From Halonatronum saccharophilum DSM 13868 (GTDB taxonomy: Bacteria; Bacillota; Halanaerobiia; Halobacteroidales; Halobacteroidaceae), in assembly GCF_000517025.1 (NCBI RefSeq), contig NZ_KI912095.1:290888-354887 (forward strand): a stretch of 64,000 nt of DNA, given 5' to 3'. The notes beneath the pieces were generated by a model. It was given only the letters and a program-made list of their open reading frames with translations. It had not been told where the DNA came from and ran no database searches. Shown piece after piece: positions 3,233 to 42,046 of the stretch (positions are counted from its first letter, which is position 1; each line of letters opens with the position of its first letter). The translations under genes were made by a program, and so were the position numbers.

Positions 3233-5335
3233 TTAAAATTTAATTATCCTAATAGCATTTAAGATAGCAATAAGAGCAACTCCAACATCTGCAAAAACTG
3301 CCTCCCACATACCAGCTAAACCAAAGGCTCCTAAGATCATTACTATCCCCTTTACTCCTAAAGATAGTATTATGTTTTGCCAAACAACCCTATTAGTCTT
3401 TTGAGCAATTTGAACTGCTTGGGCCAACTTCTCCAACTTATCATCCATTAAGACCATATCTGAAGCTTCGACTGCAGCATCTGATCCTAAGCCACCCATT
3501 GCTACCCCTATATCAGCTCTAGCTAGAACTGGAGCATCATTAATACCATCCCCAACAAAAACAACCTTCTCCTTACCCTTTGACCTCTTGTTTATAATTT
3601 CTTCTACCTTCATTACCTTATCCTTAGGTAATAGATCTCCATAATATTCATCTAGATCTAAACTTCTGCTAACCTCCCCACCTACATCTTCTTTATCTCC
3701 TGTTAGCATAATTAAATTATCAACGCCTAAAGATCTTAACCTATTAATTACTCTTTTTGATTCTTCTCTAATCTTATCTGCTATTAGAATCTGACCTAGA
3801 TATTCTCCATCATAGCTAATATTCACAAGAGTTAAAGGTGAATTATTAGCCTGATAATCTATACCTTCTCTATCCATAAGTTTGGAATTTCCTATCAGCA
3901 ACTCTTTTCCTTCTAACTTCATCTTTACTCCCATACCTCTTAGTTCTTTGTAATCTCTTATATCGATCTTCTCATCTAACTCTCTTCCAAATCTTCTTAT
4001 AATAGATTTAGCAATTGGGTGATTAGAGTTATTCTCCCCGTAAGCAGCAAACCTTAGCAAATCTTCTTTAGACCATCCCTTTACAGGGCTAATCTCAATT
4101 ACCTCAAAGACACCTTCTGTCAAGGTTCCTGTCTTATCAAAAACTACTGTCTTTACATTATTTAAGGCTTCTAAATAATTGCCGCCTTTAATTAAGATTC
4201 CATTACGAGAAGCTGAACCTATACCTCCAAAGAAACTAAGAGGGATGGAGACAACCAAAGCACAAGGACAGGAAATTACTAGAAATACCAAAGCCCTATA
4301 GACCCATTCTCCAAAGCTAGCACCTTCTAATAAAATTGGCGGAATTATAGCCAACAATAAAGCTATACCAACTACCAAGGGTGTATAATAACTAGCAAAT
4401 TTAGTTATAAAATTCTCAGTCTTTGCCTTCTTATTAGCAGATTCTTCAACTAACTTTAATATCCTTGTCAAAGTAGACTCTGAATAAACCTTAATAACCT
4501 CTAATGTTAGTAATCCTTCTAAGTTAATTGTTCCACTTAGTACCTCTTCTCCTACCCTTATTCTTTTAGGTACAGATTCACCAGTGAGTGCAGATGTATC
4601 GAGCATAGAATCACCTTCGATAACCTCCGCATCTACAGGAATTCTTTCTCCTGCTTTAACTAAGATTATATCTCCCACCTCTAACTCTTTAGGATCTACC
4701 TCTATTATTTCATCTTCTTTCTTCAATCTAGCCTTATCTACCTTCATCTCTAAAAGGGACTTGATCGAACGGCGTGAATTATCGACAGCCTTATCTTGAA
4801 AGTATTCACCAACTCGATAAAATACCATTACCGCAACACCCTCTGCAAACTCACCAATAGCAAAGGCTCCTATTGTAGCAATCGACATTAAGAAGTTTTC
4901 ATCAAACACCTGCCCTCTTAATATATTCTTAAAGGCTTTTTTTAGAACTTTAAAGCCAACTAATAGATATGCAGTAGCATTTAATATCAACTCAGTTCCA
5001 AAACTGAAATCAAAGAAGAAGGGAAGTGAAAACAAAAGAAGAGATATAAAGATTAGAACCAAAGTGTTGGCCCCAGTTAAATCTCCATCTTCAGCTTGTA
5101 ACTCTTCTTCCTCCACCTCCTTTACGACCACTTCTGGTTCTATAATACTTATTATCTCTTTGGCCCTTGCTATTATTTTTTGACCTAAAGAGGGCTTAGA
5201 TATTAATATCTCTAACTTTTCTGTCACAAAGTTTATCTGTGCTCTATCAACACCTTCTAATTTATTAATCTCTCTTTCCATCTTAGCCGCACAGTCAGCA
5301 CAACCTAAACCATCTAAGACAAAGCCCTTTTTCAT
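3233..5335 (-). CDS. heavy-metal translocating P1B-type ATPase (Zn/Cd/Pb type)
   Basis: This integral membrane pump uses ATP to export soft divalent metals. In order: an N-terminal heavy-metal-binding domain with GLGCADCAAKM, membrane helices, the actuator motif TGES, the metal-site helix ISCPCALVVS, the phosphorylation motif DKTGTLTEG, the HP motif (NSNHPIAKS), and the hinge VGDGINDAPVLARADIGVAMG. CPC with these flanks favours Zn/Cd/Pb over copper. I place the start at the ATG before KKGFVLDGLGC, with AGAGGTTGA upstream; the ATG at 5374 (AAAGGGGTG) is an alternative. The longer open frame up to 5434 overlaps the operator, so it is unlikely. Two metal-sensor-like dyads precede the gene. Confidence 0.93.
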   Translation of the reverse strand: MKKGFVLDGLGCADCAAKMEREINKLEGVDRAQINFVTEKLEILISKPSLGQKIIARAKEIISIIEPEVVVKEVEEEELQAEDGDLTGANTLVLIFISLLLFSLPFFFDFSFGTELILNATAYLLVGFKVLKKAFKNILRGQVFDENFLMSIATIGAFAIGEFAEGVAVMVFYRVGEYFQDKAVDNSRRSIKSLLEMKVDKARLKKEDEIIEVDPKELEVGDIILVKAGERIPVDAEVIEGDSMLDTSALTGESVPKRIRVGEEVLSGTINLEGLLTLEVIKVYSESTLTRILKLVEESANKKAKTENFITKFASYYTPLVVGIALLLAIIPPILLEGASFGEWVYRALVFLVISCPCALVVSIPLSFFGGIGSASRNGILIKGGNYLEALNNVKTVVFDKTGTLTEGVFEVIEISPVKGWSKEDLLRFAAYGENNSNHPIAKSIIRRFGRELDEKIDIRDYKELRGMGVKMKLEGKELLIGNSKLMDREGIDYQANNSPLTLVNISYDGEYLGQILIADKIREESKRVINRLRSLGVDNLIMLTGDKEDVGGEVSRSLDLDEYYGDLLPKDKVMKVEEIINKRSKGKEKVVFVGDGINDAPVLARADIGVAMGGLGSDAAVEASDMVLMDDKLEKLAQAVQIAQKTNRVVWQNIILSLGVKGIVMILGAFGLAGMWEAVFADVGVALIAILNAIRIIKF

Positions 5336-40953: not shown

Positions 40954-41011
40954 CTCCTTTCAAAAATAAAAAAACACCCTTTCGGGTGATCTAAAATAAA
41001 ATATATGGTTT

Positions 41012-41040
41012 TTGAGCTAAATTATAAACTGTGCTATAAT
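41012..41040 (+). promoter_or_regulatory. strong plus-strand promoter of the small hydrophobic peptide unit
   Basis: TTGAGC (41012-41017) and TATAAT (41035-41040) are 17 bases apart, with an extended TGTGC before the -10. It fires against the late operon, towards 41.2 kb. The predicted RNA would begin at about 41047, at the foot of a perfect 8-bp hairpin, GCCGACAC/GTGTCGGC (41050-41072). Confidence 0.8.
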
Positions 41041-41088
41041 AATAATTAAGCCGACACGGACGAGGTGTCGGCTGTCTCCAGAAAGGAG

Positions 41089-41181
41089 GTGAATGCAATC
41101 GATATTTTAGAGCTGATTCTAAAATACCTCCTTTTGTTATTAGCAGAACTAATCTTAATCCTAATTAAAGAAACGCTATAA
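41089..41181 (+). CDS. 30-residue hydrophobic peptide, type I toxin-like
   Basis: The frame after the hairpin encodes AIDILELILKYLLLLLAEL followed by ILILIKETL: one membrane helix with a short charged end. The only canonical in-frame start is GTG at 41089, which overlaps the ribosome site AAAGGAGGTG; a second possibility is initiation at the ATC (41098) where related leaders at 52161 and 53648 have ATG. The SD itself can pair with CTCC upstream (CTCCAGAAAGGAG). A stable 5' hairpin, masked SD, tiny membrane peptide and terminator are the hallmarks of type I toxin mRNAs. No antisense RNA is proven. Confidence 0.5.
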   Translation: MNAIDILELILKYLLLLLAELILILIKETL

Positions 41182-41190
41182 CGATCGGAG

Positions 41191-41237
41191 ACTAGCTGGC
41201 TAGGTGGTAGGACACTTAGTCAGCTTTTTATTTTTAC
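41191..41237 (+). terminator. terminator of the hydrophobic peptide unit
   Basis: AGCTGGCTA (41194-41202) pairs with TAGTCAGCT (41217-41225, one G-T pair), followed by TTTTATTTTT. It closes a transcript of about 190 nt that begins at the 41012 promoter. Confidence 0.8.
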
Positions 41238-41518
41238 CCTTTTGCAAGGGATACTACCATTATTATGCCCAGAAATCAACTTTATACTTATATACATGTC
41301 TATATACATATTATACTACTATGGTTTTATAGTGTCAACCCTAGCACTAATCTTCTATATCTATTCTCGCCACTTGCCTTAACCTATTCTAAACAAACAA
41401 TTATCTTTCTTCAAAATATAAAGCATCCAGCTTCTGCCGAGTGCCAACGCTCTTAAAAATATTCAATTCTGAATCTAATCTCTATTATAAATATTATAAC
41501 ATAGATTTTTCAATTTTT

Positions 41519-41584
41519 ACTTCACTTGTACTTCAATTTCACTTCAAAATCACTTCAAAATCACTTCACTTTTACTTCGCTCTA
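41519..41584. repeat. six 11-bp iterons upstream of the late operon
   Basis: Six consecutive 11-mers start with ACTTC: ACTTCACTTGT, ACTTCAATTTC, ACTTCAAAATC twice, ACTTCACTTTT, ACTTCGCTCTA. On the minus strand each reads as GAAGT near its end, once per helical turn, so all face the same side of the DNA. They lie directly after the stop of the ArpU/RinA-like gene and about 560 bp upstream of the small terminase. Between 41238 and 41518 I see only AT-rich DNA and the late promoter region, no gene. Binding site for the late activator, or packaging site, is inference. Confidence 0.75.
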
Positions 41585-42046
41585 TTAAATTAGATTGATT
41601 ATCTCCTCATATAACAAGTGTAAACCACCATTTTCTAAAACTCTAAGCCCTTTAACTCTCCTTCTGTGCAAAGTTGAATCACTAATAATCAACTTTGCTT
41701 CTATCATCTGATTTCTATAATTCTTTAGATATTTTAATTTAATCACCTTCGCCATTTCTTCCCCGAACCTAGGATCTTCTTCTTTTAACCTCTCTACATC
41801 TTCCTCAATTATTCTCCTTAACTGGTCTGCCCTATTAGCCTTTCTAAGCAAGTCATCATTTCTAATTGCATTGTTCTCCTGTTGGCCCTCTCCATAAGCT
41901 ACAGCAGATAATCGACCAGGGATGACATCAGCTGCTTTATACCCAGACCTTAGACCATCATCAATCATACATGCTTTTCTTCTCAGCCTTTTGCTTGCCC
42001 TCCTAAGACTTCTATATGAATACAATACCTTCTCTACCTGCTTCAC
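41585..42046 (-). CDS. ArpU/RinA-family late transcription regulator
   Basis: 153 residues, basic at the N-terminus (YRSLRRASKRLRRKACMIDDGL), then an acidic helix and a sigma-70 region 4-like HTH at the end (AKVIKLKYLKNYRNQMIEAKLIISDSTLHRRRVKGLRVLENG). This arrangement is that of ArpU/RinA-type activators that switch on phage packaging and structural genes from just upstream of the terminase. GTG start after AGGGGGCGGC. It is the last gene before the iterons, so it may bind them. Confidence 0.78.
   Translation of the reverse strand: MKQVEKVLYSYRSLRRASKRLRRKACMIDDGLRSGYKAADVIPGRLSAVAYGEGQQENNAIRNDDLLRKANRADQLRRIIEEDVERLKEEDPRFGEEMAKVIKLKYLKNYRNQMIEAKLIISDSTLHRRRVKGLRVLENGGLHLLYEEIINLI

Follow-up and report, generated by a model that had tools for sequence, protein, structure and literature searches.

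A putative phage-borne family of type I-like toxin–antitoxin units in the Halanaerobiales, with a prophage copy whose toxin start has probably been lost or weakened

A compact plus-strand unit at positions 41012–41235 of the window (the whole 64,000-nucleotide stretch of Halonatronum saccharophilum DSM 13868 DNA analysed here) is best explained overall as one copy of a phage-borne type I toxin–antitoxin family of the Halanaerobiales, a reading to which we assign a probability of roughly 0.7. Pattern and covariance-model searches recovered six further distinct units in Halanaerobiales genomes, making seven with that of the window, and all seven have in common a promoter, a 5′ hairpin, an anti-Shine-Dalgarno (anti-SD) sequence, a Shine-Dalgarno sequence (SD), a short hydrophobic frame that itself contains an anti-SD, complementarity between the 5′ and 3′ parts, and a terminator. 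We file them as a new family of type I-like units whose working would resemble that of AapA while lying outside that family, with the toxicity of the peptide and the antisense RNA inferred from sequence. A preliminary description of the window unit had called it type I toxin-like, and the six homologous units of equal anatomy, together with a conserved convergent antisense promoter, bear this out.

The window unit is flanked by minus-strand genes, with a late transcription regulator (41585–42046; PHROG transcriptional regulator 6e-7 and activator 3e-5 by profile search) on one side and terS and terL (PHROG terminase small subunit 3e-55 and large subunit 9e-71) on the other. The prophage that holds it is present in IMG/VR as a 52.6-kb viral contig, with zero differences across the 6.6-kb stretch compared. 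The promoter of the toxin mRNA (TTGAGC-17-TATAAT, 41012–41040) matches the consensus at 10 of 12 positions, has an extended TG before the −10 element, and recurs in the homologues, where Orenia MSL40, L105, and G003 have it in the identical context TGCTATAATAA..ATTAAGCC; the consensus promoter of the preliminary description is present, although as a bare match it is at chance level (18 promoter-like sites against 19.7 expected in a scan of the region). The RNA is expected to start near 41047–41048, so that a 5′ terminal hairpin (41049–41073), whose stem has 9 bp rather than the 8 first reported, would form at once. There follow GTCTCC (41074–41079), which is both the upstream anti-SD (TCTCC:GGAGG in the nascent RNA) and the 5′ arm of a long-range pairing; the SD AAAGGAGGT (41082–41090); the toxin-like frame (41098–41181, stop TAA at 41179–41181), inside which lies the internal anti-SD ACCTCCTTTT (41126–41135) that pairs with the SD in longer RNA; GGAGAC (41187–41192), the 3′ arm of the long-range pairing; and an intrinsic terminator (41194–41235) with its U tract after a 13-bp stem (41194–41225). 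The 5′ hairpin, self-pairing SD, hydrophobic frame, and terminator had all been listed before at about these positions, whereas the GTCTCC:GGAGAC pairing and a 12/12 promoter on the opposite strand (41338–41310) had been overlooked.

The homologues were reached by several routes. A terS scan led to IMG/VR 2703719065, identified as contig NZ_PVNB01000046 of Orenia metallireducens MSL40, where a similar unit occupies the corresponding position; Orenia and the window host belong to one family, the Halobacteroidaceae (NCBI taxonomy). A shared string, TGCTATAATAANNATTAAGCC, then led to G003 and to L105, an additional close copy of the MSL40 unit, and covariance models led to G007a, G010, G007b, and G009. 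Covariance-model E-values for the units reach 1e-21, and the window scores 6e-16 in 64 kb with a model that includes the window itself, and 8.7e-16 with R1. Features outside the search models (terminators, 3′ arms, and peptide C-termini) recur in all units. Across 398 genomes of the phylum, searched with models trained partly on family members themselves and with stricter filters that lose weak matches, clear units were confined to the Halanaerobiales. One genome holds two diverged copies on the same contig (G007:C9, at 649 kb and 700 kb; L210 and L226), in separate prophage remnants 51 kb apart.

Other searches added no members. A peptide search of 61 genomes gave a single chance match, inside a dihydrolipoamide dehydrogenase-like gene (L002), and BLAST of the unit DNA against 59 genomes of the class returned only the unit itself and short noise, including a match within a coding region (L085). 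Pattern matches L107, L108, and L121 proved to be coding sequence, and the weak model matches L179–L182, L200, L204–L206, L222, L223, L235, and L237 were inspected and rejected. A TerL scan of genome contigs gave no confirmed match, a peptide-based DNA pattern run on viral contigs found known members and three chance matches only, and BLAST of units and peptides against phage and plasmid records, which is insensitive to short hydrophobic queries, yielded nothing useful.

The homologues encode conserved peptides of 24–25 residues with the consensus MxWLKIIxxILAILQLILxLIDKL, all with ATG starts: MKWITIVKTILAILQLILDLIDKL in MSL40, MDLYKIIMLILAFLQLILEIMDKLL in G003, MKWLKLLGIILEILQSLLDLIDKLL in G007a, MNWLRIIEVLLAILQLLLEIIKKLL in G010, MKWLKLIMIILDILRILLNIINKLS in G007b, and MPWLKIIELILALLELIVELIDRL in G009. 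They are alike in length and pattern, and pN/pS, pooled over the ATG-bearing frames, is 0.47. The window peptide, DILELILKYLLLLLAELILILIKETL after ATC, is the most divergent member, at 28–46% identity over a short hydrophobic alignment. Because short hydrophobic peptides align easily, the case for homology rests mostly on the RNA features.

These RNA features are pronounced. The 185-nt RNA of the window folds at −67.8 kcal/mol compared with −41.2 in shuffled sequences (z −6.5 to −6.8 in two computations), and z values for the full-length RNAs of the window, MSL40, L105, G003, G007a, and G010 run from −6.5 to −12.4. In an alignment of six units the 5′ hairpin covaries, both partners having changed in 4 of its 8 pairs, and sliding the partner abolishes the signal. 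In each unit, moreover, the 5′ leader is complementary to the 3′ spacer, and the sequences that pair are specific to the unit: GTCTCC:GGAGAC in the window, CCGAAAA..ACCTCC:GGAGGTATTTTCGG in MSL40, GACCG:CGGTC in G003, GGAAC:GTTCC in G007a and G007b, CCAGAG:CTCTGG in G010, and GGAGCA:TGCTCC in G009. Against shuffled 3′ segments this pairing has p values of 0.001–0.006 per unit (0.006 for the window alone) and a combined p of 2.6e-12 over the seven; in a cross-table of arms, four of the seven rows had the unit's own 3′ arm as top partner, and in the other three it came within about 2.1 kcal of the best. Taken by themselves, the promoter-like sites of the region would permit the view that promoter-, hairpin-, and terminator-like sequence has clustered by accident around a chance hydrophobic frame, but the homologous units, their covarying helices, and fold z values of −6.5 or lower refute it, leaving it a negligible probability.

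Partition functions suggest how the parts might act together. In the nascent RNA of all seven units the upstream anti-SD is predicted to hold the SD (0.82–1.00), while in the full-length RNA of six of the seven the internal anti-SD holds it (0.80–1.00), the 5′ anti-SD being engaged in the long-range helix; in the exception, G003, the SD stays with the upstream anti-SD in the full-length RNA too. In the window, the SD is predicted to be paired at every transcript length tested, its unpaired probability being 0.09 in nascent RNA and 0.00 at each greater length. SD openness is at most 20% in all seven units at all lengths tested, and the model predicts for each of the seven a toxin mRNA that is inactive through SD sequestration. 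Folding alone yields no open state, so that activation would call for a further step, 3′ trimming or another.

On the other strand, beyond the toxin terminator and aimed back into the unit, the window has a convergent promoter that matches the consensus at 12 of 12 positions (TTGACA-17-TATAAT, 41310–41338, minus strand; p = 0.002 against shuffles), with a start expected near 41303. The same 12/12 promoter is found in MSL40, and 11/12 promoters stand at the same relative place in G003 (TTGACG-18-TATAAT) and G009 (TTTACA-17-TATAAT); in G007a, G010, and G007b the promoter is weak (9–10/12, with p about 0.13 and 0.14 where tested). The combined p is 1.2e-5 over five units, with G009 and G007b left out. 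In the window, the complement of the 5′ hairpin followed by TAATTATTATTA is terminator-like on the antisense strand, and in five of the seven units the hairpin complement and the T-rich complement of the start region together have this character, so that one hairpin may serve both RNAs. From the promoter and these terminators we propose an antitoxin RNA at 41040–41303 of the minus strand, which would be about 260 nt long if it ends at the 41049–41073 hairpin, or about 330 nt if it ends at a terminator at 40988–40975.

The neighborhood of the window unit has further signals on the minus strand. A late-type promoter (TTGAAA-18-TATAAT, 41484–41513) lies just after the late regulator gene, and upstream of it (41515–41580) is a run of ACTTC repeats (GAAGT on the minus strand) in an 11-bp register, which is likely an activator binding array for the terminase operon. 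The predicted transcript from this promoter would cross the toxin unit antisense, toward terS. The terminator at 40975–40988 is strong and stands on the late strand just upstream of terS; late transcription from 41484 must pass it, implying antitermination or another promoter. Separately, a hairpin of sequence CCAGCTTCTGC(C/T)GAGTG, whose loop reads AGAA on the opposite strand, occurs at 41427–41443 of the window and on both sides of the unit in MSL40 (L212), and is probably a common phage terminator.

It is informative to examine where the units reside. All homologous units lie within prophages, phage-like elements, or remnants of these. The MSL40 unit occupies the same site as that of the window, between late regulator and terS; the G003 unit is on a 108-kb contig with repressor, replication-like, ParM-like, phage tail, and lysis genes; those of G010 and G009 are inside phage tail modules; and those of G007a and G007b are in prophage remnants that include genes resembling those for a lysozyme and a helicase loader. 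Apart from the three profile-scanned window proteins, these gene names come from reading the translations. The insertion site varies among phages, as expected of a mobile accessory cassette. The confinement to phages and remnants, along with the weak antisense promoters of three units, would also suit a small phage membrane protein, concerned with lysis timing or superinfection exclusion and made from a tightly controlled mRNA without an antitoxin RNA. This is improbable given that the gene has its own promoter and terminator and often opposes a phage operon, that its position differs among phages (terS, tail module, repressor region), and that two SD-closing elements with a long-range lock are joined to convergent consensus promoters.

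The window copy differs from its relatives at the start of the frame. The preliminary description had called the start codon odd, and it is: the window frame has no in-frame ATG, whereas the six other distinct units all have an ATG soon after the SD. The earlier figure of about 30 hydrophobic residues applies if translation begins at GTG 41089 (30 residues), and ATC 41098, which stands 8 nt after GGAGG just as the homologues' ATG does, would give 27. The nearest ATG (41093) is out of frame and meets a stop after 5 codons. Comparison of GGAGGTGAATGCTAATGGAT in G003 with GGAGGTGAATGC-AATCGAT in the window indicates that the latter is one base shorter and has ATC for ATG, which makes ATG 41093 look like a remnant left when the window lost one base upstream and its ATG became ATC. 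Entry into the toxin frame by frameshifting from ATG 41093 was rejected on reading the sequence, which holds no fitting slippery site. The window copy is most likely without a normal start, since every homologue has ATG in place of its ATC, and the likeliest reading is that the toxin start has been lost or strongly weakened while the RNA parts have been retained, so that the copy is probably silenced or attenuated for want of an ATG.

Two other views of this copy deserve consideration. Bacteria initiate weakly at the near-cognate codon AUC, and here the ATC is correctly spaced, the frame is open, the RNA elements are all intact, and the antisense promoter is perfect; these features would be consistent with a fully or partly functional copy in which, with the SD closed, a low rate of starts at ATC 41098 or GTG 41089 keeps a potent peptide just below harmful levels. 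We regard this as unlikely, if less so than the membrane-protein alternative above: GTG 41089 overlaps the SD and cannot use it, the other units all begin with ATG, and in AapA3 a change of ATG to the near-cognate ATT (G54T) abolished both toxin translation and toxicity (PMC6733600). A second view, that the window unit now works as RNA only, for example as a decoy for, or regulator of, the antisense transcript or the late transcript toward terS, takes its appeal from the loss of the start codon beside intact RNA parts, and from the late-type promoter (41513–41484) with its phased repeats that sends transcripts antisense through the unit. Recent loss of the start would give the same appearance, however, and beyond the frame the window RNA shows no sign of selection; we consider this view distinctly improbable.

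Neither the window peptide together with four to six homologue peptides (no match at E ≤ 1 in Pfam, NCBIfam, PHROGs, or PADLOC) nor the unit as a whole (no credible match in Rfam) matches a family in the libraries searched, and literature searches turned up no report of a type I system from Halanaerobium or Halanaerobiales. The nearest likeness is to AapA/IsoA of Helicobacter pylori, which by published description (PMC6733600) shares the 5′ terminal hairpin, the short hydrophobic peptide, the antisense promoter, the successive closing of the SD by anti-SDs in the 5′ UTR and inside the frame (a handover not predicted in G003), and the 5′–3′ long-range pairing in the full-length RNA. The AapA3 transcript stays inert until its 3′ end is trimmed, owing to a long-distance interaction and to two SD hairpins that form in succession (PMC6733600). 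The wiring is nonetheless different: AapA3 has a third, 3′ anti-SD that holds the SD in full-length RNA, whereas here it is the internal or upstream anti-SD that sequesters the SD, and the 3′ arm is itself SD-like (GGAG) and pairs with the upstream anti-SD; the IsoA3 promoter lies inside the toxin frame, whereas the best antisense promoter here is beyond the toxin terminator; and AapA/IsoA is found on the Helicobacter chromosome, the new family in Clostridia phages.

The TxpA, BsrG, or YonT type named in the preliminary description is right as to the general kind (prophage, Gram-positive, convergent antisense) but not as to family, and the mRNA logic is nearer AapA/IsoA. With TxpA/RatA, BsrG/SR4, BsrE/SR5, and YonT/SR6 of Bacillus subtilis the units share a prophage location, a short hydrophobic peptide, and a convergent antisense RNA, here predicted, over the 3′ part of the toxin gene; they differ in having no Pfam, NCBIfam, or PHROGs family match and in their shorter peptides of 24–27 residues, compared with 28–60 for B. 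subtilis type I toxins (PMC6563280). The Fst/par family also combines a small hydrophobic peptide with a structured leader, but no peptide of the new family matches PF13955 (Fst/Ldr). In hok/Sok, metastable leader structures and 5′–3′ pairing keep the full-length mRNA inert, much as predicted here; Hok peptides have roughly double the length and are translated through an upstream frame, and the present units have no Rfam match. A viral contig, L164, served as a positive control: its Fst-like peptide MQCLFKFVIAPILVGIALQLFDWWLNNHGNDR (4534–4700 region, minus strand; PF13955 1.6e-8, just under the cut-off) was caught by the same anti-SD/SD pattern, with the anti-SD directly before its SD. Two small hydrophobic peptide genes with strong TTGAC..TATAAT promoters were also seen in Halanaerobiia genomes (MGWLQILIQIVTLVVLILTVIEKAQNIAKNNRERKSPRYPRLKK in L234 and MEWLKNLGLILGLIFTFEKIILTALEIIKKYKELNSDDES in L238, each at about 1500–1660), and these resemble type I toxins of another family.

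Under the toxin–antitoxin reading, the upstream anti-SD would close the SD while the mRNA is being made; once the transcript is complete, that anti-SD would be captured by the 3′ arm, and the in-frame anti-SD would take over closure of the SD in six of the seven units, leaving the full-length mRNA inert. An antisense RNA from the convergent promoter would bind this mRNA and block or destroy it. On loss of the element, the longer-lived mRNA would be matured and translated into a membrane-damaging peptide, and this release would select for keeping the element. In the window, where the homologues' ATG is ATC, synthesis of the peptide is probably very weak or absent. We hold more tentatively, at somewhat under even odds, the fuller picture of a new type I family of extremophile phages in which an SD-like 3′ arm shifts the SD to the in-frame anti-SD, the 5′ hairpin doubles as the antitoxin terminator, and the window copy is a naturally arisen knock-out that lost the toxin start but kept its RNA parts.

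This looks like the first type I toxin–antitoxin family for phages of the Halanaerobiales, and it has enough diverged members for a comparative study of RNA switching. It can now be found by covariance model, where sequence searches miss the short, low-complexity peptide, and the genome with two copies would be useful for tests of antitoxin cross-talk. The window copy, lacking its ATG, offers a natural test of the role of the RNA parts without the toxin. More broadly, the SD-closing logic of the Helicobacter type appears also in a Gram-positive phage family that looks unrelated, with the wiring done differently.
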